Part shown: in pieces, positions 40,079 through 46,484 of the stretch
Layout: each line of letters begins with the position of its first letter
Numbering within the stretch: the stretch's first letter is position 1
Source of the DNA: Candidatus Bathyarchaeota archaeon A05DMB-5
GTDB taxonomy: Archaea > Thermoproteota > Bathyarchaeia > Bathyarchaeales > Bathycorpusculaceae
Assembly (NCBI GenBank): GCA_019685655.1
Contig: JABFQP010000001.1
Coordinates: forward strand, 248,001-312,000
Length of the DNA stretch: 64,000 nucleotides
Reading direction: 5' to 3'
Notes under the pieces: generated by a model
Seen by the model: the letters and a program-made list of their open reading frames with translations, nothing else
The model's database searches: none
Told to the model about the DNA's origin: nothing
Program-made: the position numbers and the translations under genes

Positions 40079-40624
40079 TCATTTTTTGGATAATTTATTT
40101 AAGATGTCCTTTTCTATGTTGTCTTCGTCTATTTTGAACGTATCGGGTTCGTCTCTTTTCAGTATAGTTTGTAGCGCTTCAGCATCAAGCTGGTTTATGA
40201 GTCTTAAAATTTCTTTTTTTGCTGATTCAACGTGTTTTTTGAGAATCGGCCGATTTTTGTGCATTTTTCCTGCTAATGGGCATATTTTTTCCATTTTAAG
40301 GTACCATTCGATTTTTTGGGTTTTTTTGTTTATGTCAAAGGTTATTGGGCCGGCGACGCATGTTTCTGGTTTTACAGGATGCACTTGGCATTTTCTTGTT
40401 TTTTTGTCATAGAATATACAGTAGCCTTCTGTGTCTCCTCTTGGAAAAGTGTAGCCCACGTGAACAAAAGAATTCTCAATCATAATTTTTTGCTCTTTCA
40501 AGTACGCTTCGATTATTCGCCTACGCTGGTCTGTTATTGGGGGATATGCCTCTTGGCAACAGCTGATTTTGCAAGAGCCGCAGACATCAAAGAAGTTGCT
40601 TTGCCGTTCTTCTCTAGTAGTCAT
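40079..40624 (-). CDS. YkgJ-family cysteine-cluster protein
   Basis: The 181-residue protein has the family's CGSCKISCCQ motif near the N-terminus and later cysteines in GYCIFYDKKTRKCQVHPVKPETC and ICPLAGK. The cluster probably binds zinc or an iron-sulfur centre. Members are poorly understood. It lies 21 bases after the GCS2-type ligase on the same strand, so it is very likely in that operon and may modify or support the ligase product. Confidence 0.85.
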   Translation of the reverse strand: MTTREERQSNFFDVCGSCKISCCQEAYPPITDQRRRIIEAYLKEQKIMIENSFVHVGYTFPRGDTEGYCIFYDKKTRKCQVHPVKPETCVAGPITFDINKKTQKIEWYLKMEKICPLAGKMHKNRPILKKHVESAKKEILRLINQLDAEALQTILKRDEPDTFKIDEDNIEKDILNKLSKK

Positions 40625-40645
40625 GGGAGCCTTCCCTTATTGTTT

Positions 40646-41863
40646 TCAGAAGCAAGGTTGATTATTCAAGAGACACTTTATAAGTGTTAAGTAAACGCTG
40701 ACTATCGCTTCATGCAAATCTGTCTTTAGTGCTTTTCTCAAAACTTTTTCTCTGATAATTTCCGACAAATTGCCACTCTCCAGTCTTTTCTTTATTATCG
40801 GAAGATACTTCTTCTCTTCATCTGTTGCATTTTCCCAAGCAACATTCAAAAAATGTTCACAAACATGACGGGCAGTATTTCCATGAGGATGTAAAACGCG
40901 TGCTTCTAATCCCTTATGGATTATTGAGTTGAAATCTTTCACTAACATTTCGTGAGGCAAAAGCGCAGTTTCTCCGTCGTTTAATAATCCTCTTAGTAAA
41001 GCTCTTACAAAACAGCTCAAAGCTACGTCTGATTTAACACATTCTTGCTCGTCCATCACGCGTATTTCAAAGGCTCTTCTGTCAAATCGGAAAATTACTC
41101 CGCGAGAGTTAACCCAGTCTTGATAAGGAAGACACTCGTTCACGCCAGCCTTAACAAGGTCCAAAGAATATTTACCAATAATCTCTTCTTTGTAGTGCTT
41201 AAACGAAGAAACATATTCTGGCACTACATCGCCAGTTATGGAGGGCACTTCTTTTTGGTTCAACATGTAGAAAAGCAATCGGTTGTCAATGTATTCCCCT
41301 AAATGTCCCTCAAATAGAGGCGAAGATGCGCAAATGGCAGGCAAGTAAGCGCAGGTTTCCGCAAGCAAATTATGCATCAGGACTGCTTCTTTTTCGCGAG
41401 AATATGGCAAGTTCAGCTGAAAACTTTGAATGTTAAGCCACCCGTGTTGTTTGAGATTGAAAACTTTGCTGTAAACTTGATAAATCTGCCTGTGACGATG
41501 GGGCCAAATTCCCGTGTCTTCGAGTTTTAGTAGTGGGTGCATGCCGGTTCCGAGAAGGCTTGCTTTGTATTTTCTTTCTAAAAAATCAGCTATTGTGAGA
41601 ACTGCTTTATGCATGTTTTCTTCAAATTCTATGGGTGACTTGAAAGGTTTGTTAGGTTTTATTTCCATTACGTGTAATTGAAGTTCTTTGCCAAAAGTGA
41701 AGTTTGGTTGTTCTACGAAGTTTACGATACGTCCGCGGAAATCTTTTATGATTTTGTCAACGATTGGCAGTGCTTTGAGTTCTTCGTTTACTATGGAAAA
41801 TTCATGTTCTGGTCCGAGAACCTCTAAAGCTTTGTACGTGGTTGTTCCCTTTTTTAATTCTAC
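40646..41863 (-). CDS. GCS2-type glutamate-amine/cysteine ligase with non-canonical start
   Basis: A glutamate-cysteine-ligase-like (GCS2) carboxylate-amine ligase. The first ATG (41668) would remove the conserved N-terminus, but the same frame continues upstream to about 41863 and encodes VLGPEHEFSIV (the family E-x-E active site), VDKIIKDFRGRIVNFVE and FTFGKELQLHVMEIK. No ATG, GTG or TTG exists between the upstream TGA and 41668. A TATA element at 41898-41908 predicts a start of transcription near 41877, so a leaderless RNA with a rare start (ATA, ATC or near GTA 41863) is possible. It would ligate a glutamate-like acid to an amine using ATP. It is divergent from RLAN/ATP-grasp genes. Confidence 0.8.
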   Translation of the reverse strand, partial: VELKKGTTTYKALEVLGPEHEFSIVNEELKALPIVDKIIKDFRGRIVNFVEQPNFTFGKELQLHVMEIKPNKPFKSPIEFEENMHKAVLTIADFLERKYKASLLGTGMHPLLKLEDTGIWPHRHRQIYQVYSKVFNLKQHGWLNIQSFQLNLPYSREKEAVLMHNLLAETCAYLPAICASSPLFEGHLGEYIDNRLLFYMLNQKEVPSITGDVVPEYVSSFKHYKEEIIGKYSLDLVKAGVNECLPYQDWVNSRGVIFRFDRRAFEIRVMDEQECVKSDVALSCFVRALLRGLLNDGETALLPHEMLVKDFNSIIHKGLEARVLHPHGNTARHVCEHFLNVAWENATDEEKKYLPIIKKRLESGNLSEIIREKVLRKALKTDLHEAIVSVYLTLIKCLLNNQPCF

Positions 41864-41896
41864 TTGTTTCTGGAATATGATATAAAAATTACAGTT

Positions 41897-41908
41897 AATT
41901 TTAAATAG
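41897..41908. promoter_or_regulatory. AT-rich element between divergent ligase genes
   Basis: AATTTTAAATAG reads as a TATA box in both directions: CTATTTAAAATT toward the GCS2 gene (start near 41877) and TTTTAAATAG toward the RLAN gene (start near 41931, GTG at 41952). One core could drive both transcripts, which would tie their expression. Confidence 0.45.
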
Positions 41909-41951
41909 TCTGAAGCAAATACCGCTTTTTCACTCATCTGGTGCTTAATGC

Positions 41952-42644
41952 GTGTTGGTCGTCTCAAACATCGACCTAACCACAGATTTGCCTACAATGA
42001 AGCCGTCAACGTTCCTTGAATCGTCAATTAAAGATTTTACTCTCAACATTAACAATGATTACCGCTATTTGAAAACTGGATATTACGTGTCTTTGCACGC
42101 GGAAATTCTAGGCAACTCGGTGATTCCAACAAGCGAAAACTTGGTTGACGCTTACAGAACGCCAATTCTGCTGCTTCGCGCTTCAAAAGCGGGCATTCCA
42201 ACCGTACCTTACATAGTAACTGGTTCAGTGAAGCAGATAATGGCTGAAATCGGTTTTCCAACTGTTCTTTTCGCAGTAAACCCATTTTCATACGATGGTT
42301 TCAGAATCGCAAAAAACAGAAGCGCCCTTTACAGAGCAGTAAAAAGTTTAGAAATGAATTACAAGTTTCCTGTTTGCGCGCAACCTCTCCAAGGCGAGGT
42401 GATATCGTTTAAGTCCATTTTCGGAAAATGTGAAATGGATGGAAAAATAAGAGAAATTTCGGAGATGGTATACGAGGTCTTCGGAATTCCGCTTTGTAAA
42501 CTGCATGCTCAACGTGCGGAAGAAGAAGCTTACTTGTGCGGGCTTCAACCATTAAGAAAAGAGGAACTCTTACCAAAGGACTTGAAAGTAATTAGCGAAG
42601 AAATTTGGCAAATTTCTAAGAATGGTGAACATCGGATTGGCTAA
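41952..42644 (+). CDS. RLAN-domain protein (RimK-like ATP-grasp N-terminal)
   Basis: The 230-residue protein matches the RLAN domain that usually forms the N-terminal half of RimK-like ATP-grasp ligases: NNDYRYLKTGYYVSLHAEIL and GNSVIPTSENLVDAYR. Here it is a separate gene that overlaps the ATP-grasp gene by 23 bases, so the normal single protein is split. GTG 41952 follows GGTG. It probably forms a complex with the next product and helps bind the acceptor substrate. The GCS2-type ligase gene lies head-to-head. Confidence 0.8.
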   Translation: MLVVSNIDLTTDLPTMKPSTFLESSIKDFTLNINNDYRYLKTGYYVSLHAEILGNSVIPTSENLVDAYRTPILLLRASKAGIPTVPYIVTGSVKQIMAEIGFPTVLFAVNPFSYDGFRIAKNRSALYRAVKSLEMNYKFPVCAQPLQGEVISFKSIFGKCEMDGKIREISEMVYEVFGIPLCKLHAQRAEEEAYLCGLQPLRKEELLPKDLKVISEEIWQISKNGEHRIG

Positions 42645-43515
42645 CATCGCCTGTTTTGTCGAGAAATATAATTTTACAGACCCAAAAGAAGCCAAAGCGC
42701 TCGAGAATTTCAAGTTTACAGCGGAAAAACTGGGTCACAATTTCAATTTCATGTTTCGAGAGAATCTTCTGGAAATTCCAAAGTACGACGCTGTTTTTAT
42801 TAGAGCAACGACAGACCCGCTTTTTACTGCATACATAGTTTCCAAGACCGCTTGGGAGACTGGCTTAAAAGTTGTCGACGACCCAAAATCGATACAAATC
42901 TGCGGAAACAAAATTCACCTTTATTCACTCTTTGAGAAGTACGATGTCCCACGCATCCCAACAATCATCATCAACAAAGACGACTTCCACCACAAACGCA
43001 TATTAGAAATCTTCAGAACATTCGGAAGACCAGTCGTAGTCAAAGCGCCATACACGAGCTTCTCAAGATACGTGGAAAAAGTCGCCTGCGAAACAAGTTT
43101 CCGTGAAGTTGCAAAAAGATTTTTCAGAAAATCCGATGTTTTGGCTGTGCAAAAGTTTACGCCAACCGCTTTTGACTGGAGAGTCGGCGTGTTAAACGGC
43201 GAGGTTTTATATGTTTGCAAATACATGGTGCCGAAAGGAAGATGGAAACACGGCGCCAAACGCCGCGGTAAGCCCAGTTTTGTTTGGGGTAGAACCGTAT
43301 CGCTTAAAAAAGAAAACGCGCCGGCTAAATTGAAAGAGACAGCGCTTAAAGCATGTGCGGTTGTTGGAAATGGACTTTATGGAGTGGACATCAAAGAGGT
43401 TGATGGCAACTATCTTGTGGTAGAGGTTAACGACAACCCAAGCATATATGCGGGACAAGAAGACTTGCGAAACAAGGATGTGTACGAGAAAATAATAAAA
43501 TACTTAATAGACTAG
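42622..43515 (+). CDS. RimK-like ATP-grasp ligase
   Basis: ATP-grasp fold of 297 residues. Nucleotide-binding parts: GNKIHLYSLFEKYDVP, RPVVVKAPYTSFSRYV (Lys and the glycine-type loop), LAVQKFTPTAFDWRVGVL, and the Mg site GVDIKEVDGNYLVVEVNDNP. It activates a carboxylate as acylphosphate and joins an amino group; RimK, LysX and MptN are relatives. Its acceptor and donor are unknown. It overlaps the RLAN gene and is followed after 16 bases by a methyltransferase. Confidence 0.88.
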   Translation: MVNIGLANIACFVEKYNFTDPKEAKALENFKFTAEKLGHNFNFMFRENLLEIPKYDAVFIRATTDPLFTAYIVSKTAWETGLKVVDDPKSIQICGNKIHLYSLFEKYDVPRIPTIIINKDDFHHKRILEIFRTFGRPVVVKAPYTSFSRYVEKVACETSFREVAKRFFRKSDVLAVQKFTPTAFDWRVGVLNGEVLYVCKYMVPKGRWKHGAKRRGKPSFVWGRTVSLKKENAPAKLKETALKACAVVGNGLYGVDIKEVDGNYLVVEVNDNPSIYAGQEDLRNKDVYEKIIKYLID

Positions 43516-43531
43516 AGTATGGGCGAATAAT

Positions 43532-44404
43532 TTGCATCCAGATTTTCAGAAAATTTTCGCTGCGCCTGGTTCCCTCAAGCCTTTAAAATATGATGGAACA
43601 AGGTACGGTGTCCAGTGGAAAGACGGTGTTCTCAAAACAGCTGATGGGCTGGTACTCTTCCCTGTGCGAGAGGGCATTCCAGATTTTGTTCCCACCTCTG
43701 TTCCAGCGTGGAGCGAAAAGGACATTGACGAGATTAGAAAAGGTGACTGGATTAGACGCAATTGGGAGAGCCAAATAGAGCGAATGCAAACTAATCTTAA
43801 GCACAAAGAATTTTGCAAAAACATTGCAGAATATAACGGTTTAATTCTTGATGTCGCCTCGGGACCAGGCGGCGGAAACATGCCTGGAATCGTTTACATC
43901 AACTCGGAAGCCAAAGTATTAATGAGCGATTTAAGCGCTAAAGTGCTTCACGAGTGGCAGTTATACTTGAAAACGCATGATTTAGGCGTTAACGTGAGCT
44001 TTGCCGCTTTCGATGCCACCAACATGCCAATACACTCCAATTCATTTGATATAGTCACTAGCTATGGAGGGTTCAGCAACATTCCAAACACGGACAAAGC
44101 CTTGGTCGAAACTTATCGGATATTAAAGAAGAGAGGTTTATTATATGTCTGTGAAGGGAAGATAACACAAGAAAGTTTTTCAAAACTTCCGAAAAATGTG
44201 CAGATTAAATGGAGAGAGAAAATTTCGCACCTAAAGACCAACTATGAAGAGTTAATAAAAAAAGCCGGATTTTCCATTACAAGCTACTTTGAAAATGCCG
44301 AAAAAGCATTGAGTCCCGATGAAGCTGATCTTCCTGCAATGGCAGCGAAATACGGAGTAATATTGTATTATGTGAATTGCTATATCTGTGCAGAGAAAAA
44401 ATAA
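43532..44404 (+). CDS. SAM-dependent methyltransferase with Trm112-like start
   Basis: The first 55 residues form a small strand-rich region of the Trm112-like kind (PLKYDGTRYGVQWKDGVLKT, VREGIPDFVPT) without cysteines. The class I methyltransferase part follows, with the SAM motif LILDVASGPGGG near residue 106, a later acidic motif (MSDLS) and FDIVTSYGGFSNIP. TTG 43532 is the start. The substrate may be the product of the ligase cluster, an inference from position. Confidence 0.78.
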   Translation: MHPDFQKIFAAPGSLKPLKYDGTRYGVQWKDGVLKTADGLVLFPVREGIPDFVPTSVPAWSEKDIDEIRKGDWIRRNWESQIERMQTNLKHKEFCKNIAEYNGLILDVASGPGGGNMPGIVYINSEAKVLMSDLSAKVLHEWQLYLKTHDLGVNVSFAAFDATNMPIHSNSFDIVTSYGGFSNIPNTDKALVETYRILKKRGLLYVCEGKITQESFSKLPKNVQIKWREKISHLKTNYEELIKKAGFSITSYFENAEKALSPDEADLPAMAAKYGVILYYVNCYICAEKK

Positions 44405-44482: not shown

Positions 44483-45439
44483 ATGTCGCTGAAAAATAGT
44501 GTTGAAGATTACGAATTTTCGGAGAGAATGACTGTTGATGCTCTTGTCAAGCAGATGGAGAGGGCGTGGGGTTTTACCGCTGGGAAACTGGCTGTTGGCG
44601 TGGAAATTCTGGAACGCATGGTTAGGATGCGTGAGTGTGTGAAGTTTCTTTCTTTCACTGGAAATCTTGTAGCCACAGGAACTAGGGGAGTTTTCAAAGA
44701 GTTTGCGAAAAATAAGCTCGTCGACGTTATAGTTACTACTTGCGGAGCCCTTGACCATGACATTGCTAGGTGCTGGAAAAACTACTACAAGGGTTCGTTC
44801 GTTATGAACGACGCTGAACTCCGTAGGAAGGGCATGAACCGTTTAGGAAACGTGCTTGTCCCAAACGAAAGCTACGGCGTAGTAATCGAAGAGAAAATGC
44901 AGAAGATGCTTCAGAGTTTATGGAAGGAAGGCGTAAAAGAACTCTCATCCAGTCAGTTGTGCCATGAAATTGGAGAAAGAATCTGCAACGAAAGCTCCAT
45001 TCTCTATTGGGCAGCAAAAAACAAAATACCAGTCTACGTGCCAGGCATAACAGACGGCGCCGTAGGCTATCAACTGTGGCTTTTCTCTCAAGACCACAAC
45101 TTCAAAATCAACCTATTAAAAGATTCAAGCGAACTCAGCGACATCGTTTACGAAGCGAAAAAAACCGGCGCACTAATAGTAGGCGGAGGCATCTCGAAAC
45201 ATCATACGCTTTGGTGGAACCAGTTCAGAGAAGGCTTAGACTACGCGGTTTACATAAGCACAGCCGACGAGTGGGACGGAAGCCTCTCCGGAGCCAGACC
45301 GAGAGAAGCTGTTTCATGGGGAAAAATAAGCGCAAAAGCAAAACGCATAATGATTGAGGGCGACGCTTCGCTTATACTGCCAATAATGATTAGCTCGCTG
45401 ATAAATAGATTAAAGAAAAGTCCTATACGACTTGGCTGA
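44483..45439 (+). CDS. dys: Deoxyhypusine synthase
   Basis: Transfers the aminobutyl group of spermidine to a lysine of aIF5A. DHS marks: TTCGALDHDIARCW, PVYVPGITDGAVGYQL, GGGISKHHTLWW, TADEWDGSLSGARPREAVSW followed by GKI with the catalytic Lys. Length 318 is typical of archaea. This copy keeps the canonical order and is the better candidate for true DHS. Its end overlaps the second paralogue tail-to-tail by 17 bases. Confidence 0.9.
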   Translation: MSLKNSVEDYEFSERMTVDALVKQMERAWGFTAGKLAVGVEILERMVRMRECVKFLSFTGNLVATGTRGVFKEFAKNKLVDVIVTTCGALDHDIARCWKNYYKGSFVMNDAELRRKGMNRLGNVLVPNESYGVVIEEKMQKMLQSLWKEGVKELSSSQLCHEIGERICNESSILYWAAKNKIPVYVPGITDGAVGYQLWLFSQDHNFKINLLKDSSELSDIVYEAKKTGALIVGGGISKHHTLWWNQFREGLDYAVYISTADEWDGSLSGARPREAVSWGKISAKAKRIMIEGDASLILPIMISSLINRLKKSPIRLG

Positions 45440-46484
45440 AAAGCCACGAAAGGTCCGGCGCTTTCCTTTTAGCTTTCACTCTTTCATTTAACGCATGCGT
45501 TATGAGTGGCAAAGCGATTGTTGCGTCGCAGTAGCAGACGGCTTTTTTTCCTTCACTGTGGATTTTGCCCCAACTAACTGCTTCTTCTAAGGTGCAGCCG
45601 GACAAGCCACCCCATTGAGGTGAGTCGGTTGTGATTTGTATTGCGTATTTGTGCGGGTAATAGTATTCTTGGACGCTTTTGCGTTTGAAACCTTCCCTTC
45701 CAGGCACACCCTTGTCCATGGTTTTCGGCGAGACAGATATTGCAATTAGTTGCGTGAAGTCTTTGGGTACGCCTCCGCCTATGTAGACGACTCCTATATC
45801 TTTTGTTTTTTCACCTATGCCCACAAACTGGTCGAACTCTTTAACTGAATCTACTACGATTGGGTGTCCCATGTTTTTAGCCATTAAGAAGGCTTCGCCG
45901 TAAGCGCTGTCGGAAATTGCAGGACAGAAAATTGGCACGTTATTTTCCGCCGCCACTGCAGCTATGCTTTTTATTCCTTTTTTGCTGAGCCACTTGCCGA
46001 ACAAGTAAAGAAGCTCCATAGAAGAGTATGTGAAGTCCATTCGCAACGTTAACAGAAAATCAGTCATCAACTCTTCCATTTTCCTGTAATCAGATTCCTT
46101 GCCAAACACGTCATAATACCTGTTTATGTCAGCCTTTAGAAGCGCCTCATCGTTCACCATGTGGCTTCCCTGCCAATATCCAAAACCCATAGCATCCACA
46201 ATGTCCTCAGAAACATTTGCGCCTGTAGAAACGAGAACGTCGATGAAGCGGTTTTCCATAAGCCAGTTGACTATTTTCCACTGTCCAGCCGTGCTCATCG
46301 AACCTGAAAAGCCCATGATAATTGTTAAGTTCTTTTCTTTCAGCATGGCTTCCCAAACTTCCACAGCTTCTCCAAGTTTTCTTCCTTGATAGGCTGTTCT
46401 GCTCATCTCCGCCAAAAGCTGAGAAATGCTTTTTTCTTTTACTTCTATGGCTTCAACTTTTCTCTTAAAATACTCATCAATCAT
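45423..46484 (-). CDS. Deoxyhypusine-synthase-like paralogue
   Basis: The second DHS-family protein, 353 residues. It keeps EEAVSWGKIHSEG with the catalytic Lys but differs elsewhere: FSGSMSTAGQW, STGANVSEDIVDAMG, CPAISDSAYGEAF, TTDSPQWGGLSGCTL. This is the DHS-like group, some of whose members make homospermidine or related polyamines rather than deoxyhypusine. Start ATG behind GGTG. Convergent and overlapping with the canonical copy. The exact reaction is uncertain. Confidence 0.85.
   Translation of the reverse strand: MIDEYFKRKVEAIEVKEKSISQLLAEMSRTAYQGRKLGEAVEVWEAMLKEKNLTIIMGFSGSMSTAGQWKIVNWLMENRFIDVLVSTGANVSEDIVDAMGFGYWQGSHMVNDEALLKADINRYYDVFGKESDYRKMEELMTDFLLTLRMDFTYSSMELLYLFGKWLSKKGIKSIAAVAAENNVPIFCPAISDSAYGEAFLMAKNMGHPIVVDSVKEFDQFVGIGEKTKDIGVVYIGGGVPKDFTQLIAISVSPKTMDKGVPGREGFKRKSVQEYYYPHKYAIQITTDSPQWGGLSGCTLEEAVSWGKIHSEGKKAVCYCDATIALPLITHALNERVKAKRKAPDLSWLFSQVV

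Follow-up and report, generated by a model that had tools for sequence, protein, structure and literature searches.

A 64,000-nt stretch of the genome of Candidatus Bathyarchaeota archaeon A05DMB-5 (assembly GCA_019685655.1, contig JABFQP010000001.1, positions 248,001 to 312,000 of the forward strand; the whole stretch is called the window here, with positions counted from its first letter) carries two divergent gene pairs, a GCS2-type carboxylate-amine ligase and a YkgJ-family protein on the complement strand facing an RLAN protein and a RimK-like ATP-grasp ligase on the forward strand. That these four form one functional unit is supported by their co-occurrence, their adjacency in three archaeal groups and their correlated divergence. 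With moderate confidence, we read them as a non-ribosomal peptide (amide) ligase module in which GCS2 would act first and ATP-grasp together with RLAN second, with YkgJ as an accessory. The module is strongly conserved in environmentally weighty archaea (Bathyarchaeota, Methanothrix). Its sequences place it as a divergent archaeal form of an amidoligase system that is known but uncharacterised, and its new elements are a conserved ACG start of the GCS2 gene and a probable pseudo-ATP-grasp subunit.

Conservation and layout of the four-gene unit

The genome holding the window is archaeal and 1.5 Mb in size, and most of the relatives that bear the module are deposited under the name Candidatus Bathyarchaeota. 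Comparisons covered a near-relative set of 121 genomes, with gene order inspected at 36 relative loci, and a wider survey consisting of a GCS2 profile scan of 84,980 species genomes followed by neighbour searches. RLAN was found in 37 and GCS2 in 36 of the 121 relatives, with both in 35, RLAN only in two, GCS2 only in one and neither in 83, all counted without correction for shared ancestry. The clustering of RLAN and GCS2 exceeds chance, the pairing holds also where the two genes are non-adjacent, and independent scatter of the gene set among relatives, against which the original prediction was to be checked, was not observed. The three exceptions were a contig that ends where GCS2 is expected, an RLAN gene on a 5-kb contig and one genome with GCS2 alone.

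GCS2 and RLAN were divergent neighbours in 27 of the 36 relative loci. ATP-grasp directly followed RLAN at every divergent locus, and YkgJ lay 13–56 nt behind GCS2 in 25 of the 27, the remaining two being contig edges. Neighbour searches recovered the same four genes in two further groups, mostly on a single strand, in the order RLAN-ATP-grasp-GCS2-YkgJ in Archaeoglobales and RLAN-ATP-grasp-YkgJ-GCS2 in Methanothrix and its relatives (Methanosarcinales), and Pfam confirmed example loci of both. Protein pairwise distances of the four members were correlated over 54 loci (0.89–0.99), as would be expected under co-inheritance, though relatedness alone contributes.

In the window, GCS2 (40646–41839, complement strand; 397 aa; PF04107, E = 5.5e-30) is separated by 21 nt from YkgJ (40079–40624, complement strand; 181 aa; PF03692, E = 4.5e-10). 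RLAN (41952–42644, forward strand; 230 aa from a GTG start; PF14401, E = 2.2e-16) overlaps ATP-grasp (42622–43515, forward strand; 297 aa; PF08443, E = 4.9e-8) by 23 nt. The suggestion that RLAN is split from ATP-grasp was correct for the window, where no fusion was found; the split is not exceptional, however, since the two are separate genes in all archaeal loci that have both, which makes it the normal archaeal state, fusion being found in bacteria.

All five genes originally named are present, and the four core families are supported by Pfam. The fifth, a UbiE-like methyltransferase (43532–44404, forward strand; TTG start), did not hold up as a cluster member, as a counterpart beside ATP-grasp was found in none of the 36 relative loci, the same genus included. 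It is a local insertion between ATP-grasp and a deoxyhypusine synthase gene in this genome only, and the unit consists of YkgJ and GCS2 facing RLAN and ATP-grasp. Some relatives carry a major facilitator superfamily transporter or an unrelated gene in the same spot.

The 112-nt GCS2-RLAN intergenic region contains two back-to-back TATA-like elements. The box of the GCS2-YkgJ operon reads TTTATAT (41880–41886, complement strand) and lies at -47 from the ACG codon. The core promoter of the RLAN-ATP-grasp operon, AGTTAATTTTAAATA (41893–41907, forward strand), is kept in front of RLAN and is near-invariant across 26 aligned intergenic regions; at up to two mismatches it has a single match in the window, with 0.6 expected by chance. 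The suggested AT-rich element shared between the two directions is thus supported, in the form of back-to-back promoter elements.

The ACG codon at the head of GCS2

The GCS2 frame of the window contains no ATG, GTG or TTG before position 41668. A 340-aa open reading frame from the ATG at 41668 was considered and rejected, as it drops 57 residues including the GPEHEF motif, and the conserved part of the protein begins at 41839 with an ACG codon (complement of 41837–41839). This first conserved residue was encoded by ACG in 38 of 38 distinct main-clade bathyarchaeal loci (within L032–L109), and 25 loci had no ATG, GTG or TTG at all between the last stop codon and the conserved GCS2 block. Two loci of one genus (g3) instead have an ATG that lies two codons farther upstream, and a more distant group accounts for three loci that depart from the pattern. 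Among 146 conserved degenerate positions the ACG position was the most conserved in its codon (97%, the next reaching 92%), and ACG accounted for 19% of threonine codons elsewhere. All 216 gene copies of ten neighbouring gene families had canonical starts. In one metagenome-assembled genome (L047/L077) a stop codon interrupts the GCS2 frame immediately ahead of the conserved motif (L047:1777–3470), through either sequence error or decay.

A Shine-Dalgarno-like AAGGGA (41846–41851, complement strand) lies 7–12 nt before the ACG in the window, and most loci have a Shine-Dalgarno-like AGAGG 10–13 nt before it (GAGG in most relatives). In many loci a TATA-like sequence is also present at -43 to -48 relative to the ACG, a distance that would accommodate a leader of some 20 nt. 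Weak starts characterise the whole module, as RLAN avoids ATG (36 GTG, six TTG, never ATG) and ATP-grasp seldom has it (8 of 43, the rest mostly TTG or GTG).

The main rival to initiation at ACG is that the codon is not a start as such, the mRNA being edited from C to U to give AUG; the same kind of explanation would allow upstream initiation through a frameshift or a spliced leader. In favour of this rival, ACG-to-AUG editing occurs in plastids, and genus g3 has its genomic ATG two codons upstream of the ACG position. The positions of the Shine-Dalgarno-like GAGG and of the TATA-like box, however, suit direct initiation at ACG, the residues upstream of ACG are unconserved and stop codons often precede it. 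We know of no C-to-U mRNA editing in archaea, which counts further against editing, and we consider such explanations very unlikely. A literature search for ACG starts in archaea found no archaeal precedent. Annotation rules limited to ATG, GTG and TTG would remove part of the GCS2 active site, namely its catalytic motif, and an ACG start kept over many genera would serve as a natural experiment on the way archaeal ribosomes handle a near-cognate codon.

Protein families, folds and the bacterial counterpart

The GCS2 protein scored 105 bits against PF04107 (cut-off 21), and the fold predicted by its structure model (pLDDT, predicted local distance difference test, 83) matched YbdK (Z = 34.6) and plant glutamate-cysteine ligase (Z = 32.8). 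These two enzymes are alike in fold but have only 12–18% identity to the window GCS2 and differ in genomic partners. None of the NCBIfam glutamate-cysteine ligase equivalogs was passed (best 24 bits compared to a cut-off of 409). Nine columns of active-site type are invariant down to Legionella (E11, E13, E52, H56, E59, R187, R246, E258 and R260). Since charged positions on the strands expected to form the active site are kept that far, GCS2 is probably an active carboxylate-amine ligase.

ATP-grasp retains an intact EVNDNPS motif and K141, R187, R224, E268 and N270, as judged from invariant columns in 32 sequences. It shares a RimK-like domain and a similar length with RimK, LysX, MptN and CofF, but orthology to RimK, LysX or MptN, which the original prediction had named as a possible refutation, was not found, as the NCBIfam cut-offs of all four families were missed (RimK 71 against 143.4 bits, LysX 64.3 against 275.6, MptN 63.7 against 350, CofF 28 against 300); the constant RLAN and GCS2 partners set it apart as well. 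The YkgJ protein scored 40.5 bits against PF03692 (cut-off 23) and has eight cysteines invariant in 26 sequences (C15, C18, C22, C23, C69, C79, C89 and C115), with the spacing CxxC-x3-CC.

Earlier descriptions treat RLAN as a domain of unknown fold at the N-terminus, and a literature search on it (PF14401) yielded nothing on point. Profile-profile alignment with hhalign matched RLAN residues 40–146 to ATP-grasp residues 67–180 (E = 1e-4), while control profiles gave 0.15–0.38. The AlphaFold model of RLAN reached a pLDDT of only 52 overall, with residues 150–224 good, a weakness that comes from the shallow alignment behind it. When this pLDDT 52 model was compared to the PDB, the best 50 matches were ATP-grasp-fold enzymes (Z = 7.5–9.2 over residues 69–224), and Foldseek agreed (ATP-grasp enzymes, E = 5.8e-5). 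The hhalign alignment places F107 of RLAN opposite the ATP-binding Lys 141 of ATP-grasp, and the C-terminal YLCGLQP was paired by eye with YLVVEVND; for this end of RLAN the global mode of hhalign gave no trustworthy residue map. RLAN has likely lost the catalytic Lys and the metal-binding motif. The predicted fold suggests that RLAN is probably a degenerate ATP-grasp, which would make RLAN and ATP-grasp a pseudo-enzyme/enzyme pair and, if true, would assign both fold and role to the domain.

In 2009, Iyer et al. reportedly predicted bacterial RLAN-ATP-grasp and GCS2 amidoligase operons by comparative genomics. The window encodes an RLAN domain, a RimK-like ATP-grasp and GCS2 together, and because both ligases recur in the bacterial counterpart, the module is of a kind known from comparative genomics. 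That counterpart has the order C39 peptidase, fused RLAN/ATP-grasp, GCS2 and N-formylglutamate amidohydrolase. RLAN forms the N-terminus of ATP-grasp in Gemmatimonadota, Marivirga, Legionella and Azospirillum, with a C39-type peptidase and/or an N-formylglutamate amidohydrolase adjacent; the amidohydrolase accompanies the system in Legionella, Marivirga and Gemmatimonadota. Besides the RLAN domain and the adjacency of the genes, the two systems share 37% identity between the window ATP-grasp and the ATP-grasp half of the fused protein and 32% identity over 99% between GCS2 and that of Legionella. The archaeal module differs in its split RLAN and ATP-grasp, in having YkgJ, which was not found in the bacterial loci examined in these four taxa, and in lacking N-formylglutamate amidohydrolase (PF05013), which was detected in 0 of the 121 genomes, the window's own included. 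Divergent promoters and the ACG start are likewise features of the main bathyarchaeal clade, unlike the bacterial operons. A plasmid search with GCS2 matched only Legionella.

Candidate products and neighbouring genes

Glutathione synthesis by GshA (GCS2 type) and GshB (ATP-grasp) also combines a GCS2-fold ligase with an ATP-grasp ligase, and by this analogy the product of the module is most likely a gamma-glutamyl peptide made in two ATP-dependent steps; that it is a thiol is plausible. GCS2 would phosphorylate the gamma-carboxylate of glutamate with ATP and join it to an amino partner, and ATP-grasp would then activate the carboxylate of the GCS2 product and add a second unit, as GshB does after GshA. 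RLAN would be an ATP-grasp partner without catalytic activity that helps to bind substrate or to orient the dimer, and YkgJ may bind Zn or Fe in the service of the product or of its redox state. The divergent operons would fire from their back-to-back promoters, and the weak starts (ACG in GCS2, GTG or TTG in RLAN, mostly TTG or GTG in ATP-grasp) would keep translation low. The glutathione pathway is unlike the module in that the window GCS2 misses the orthology cut-offs, ATP-grasp gave no match to glutathione synthetase models, and RLAN and YkgJ have no counterpart in it.

We infer the two reactions and the sequence in which they occur, what YkgJ does, the idea that the ACG serves to keep translation low, and what the product is. 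Several points weigh against reading the four genes as a peptide ligase module. The co-occurrence counts include shared ancestry, the RLAN model is of low overall confidence, and the genes outside the core four vary between clades. By model comparison the GCS2 fold is common to YbdK, PafA/Dop and glutamine synthetases, so 'glutamate-cysteine' activity is not implied. A second bathyarchaeal-type GCS2 group (four loci) occurs in genomes without RLAN, so the second ligase is not needed for GCS2 to work. In this GCS2-only group the gene adjoins a protein of about 170 aa, and some loci also have a pyruvoyl arginine decarboxylase and an agmatinase (a polyamine context). It is doubtful that the fullest form of the proposal would hold in every part, namely a new archaeal pathway to a gamma-glutamyl peptide, probably a thiol, common to Bathyarchaeota, Archaeoglobales and Methanothrix, with an active/inactive ATP-grasp heterodimer and a bathyarchaeal GCS2 restrained by a low-efficiency ACG start. 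Methanothrix has cultured members, and therefore the product of the module can be sought.

To our knowledge, few archaeal low-molecular-weight thiols have been described, and a literature search for bathyarchaeal thiols yielded nothing on point. A thiol of this kind (gamma-Glu-Cys plus a second unit), which would counter oxidants or metals in concert with disulfide reductases, is a possibility that we entertain tentatively. The pairing of GCS2 with ATP-grasp mirrors GshA and GshB, YkgJ is Cys-rich, and redox-type genes lie nearby in subsets of loci: flavodiiron and hemerythrin/DUF438 proteins, a PDO-type disulfide oxidoreductase and an arsenate-reductase-like protein, a DsbH-type thioredoxin protein upstream in 20 of 29 Methanothrix-group loci, and a CitMHS/ArsB-type permease directly before GCS2 in four Archaeoglobales loci. 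A passage of PMC11705971 cites haloarchaeal GshA as yielding gamma-glutamylcysteine, and Haloferax volcanii matches PF04107. These neighbours are, however, clade-specific, GCS2 falls below all NCBIfam glutamate-cysteine ligase cut-offs, and its fold likeness to YbdK equals that to the plant enzyme. A role in modifying a protein or cofactor with glutamyl or peptidyl groups (a RimK-like tail, a methanofuran or F420 side chain, or a polyamine conjugate) appears unlikely. The nearest named families are RimK, LysX and MptN, but their cut-offs are missed by a wide margin. According to PMC8141765, the enzymes that add more glutamates to methanofuran in archaea await identification, but a methanofuran role is improbable in Legionella, Azospirillum and Gemmatimonadota, which carry the bacterial counterpart. 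The GCS2-only group lies beside arginine decarboxylase and agmatinase, and deoxyhypusine synthase genes follow the module in many loci and the F420-0:gamma-glutamyl ligase CofE adjoins YkgJ in six, although neither of these last two adjacencies is general.

The neighbours as a set (flavodiiron/hemerythrin, PDO, arsenate-reductase-like, DsbH, ArsB/CitMHS and Na+/H+ exchanger proteins) lean towards redox or thiol biology; each is clade-specific and none is proof. Downstream of ATP-grasp, nine loci have a flavodiiron protein and then a DUF438-hemerythrin-PAS protein, with the PDO-type and arsenate-reductase-like genes farther downstream in some loci of this type. In three loci GCS2 and RLAN are separated by a gene for a KefC-like Na+/H+ exchanger; bacterial KefC is gated by glutathione. 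The six loci with CofE belong to one subclade and carry an SCP2 protein beside YkgJ as well. Deoxyhypusine synthase genes were considered as part of the core and rejected, as many loci are linked to them, others have flavodiiron instead, and they are absent beside the Methanothrix-group module. In the window they form a convergent pair of paralogues, one of PRK01221 type (44483–45439, forward strand) and one of PRK00805 type (45423–46484, complement strand), which overlap by 17 nt, and the pair is kept in many relatives.

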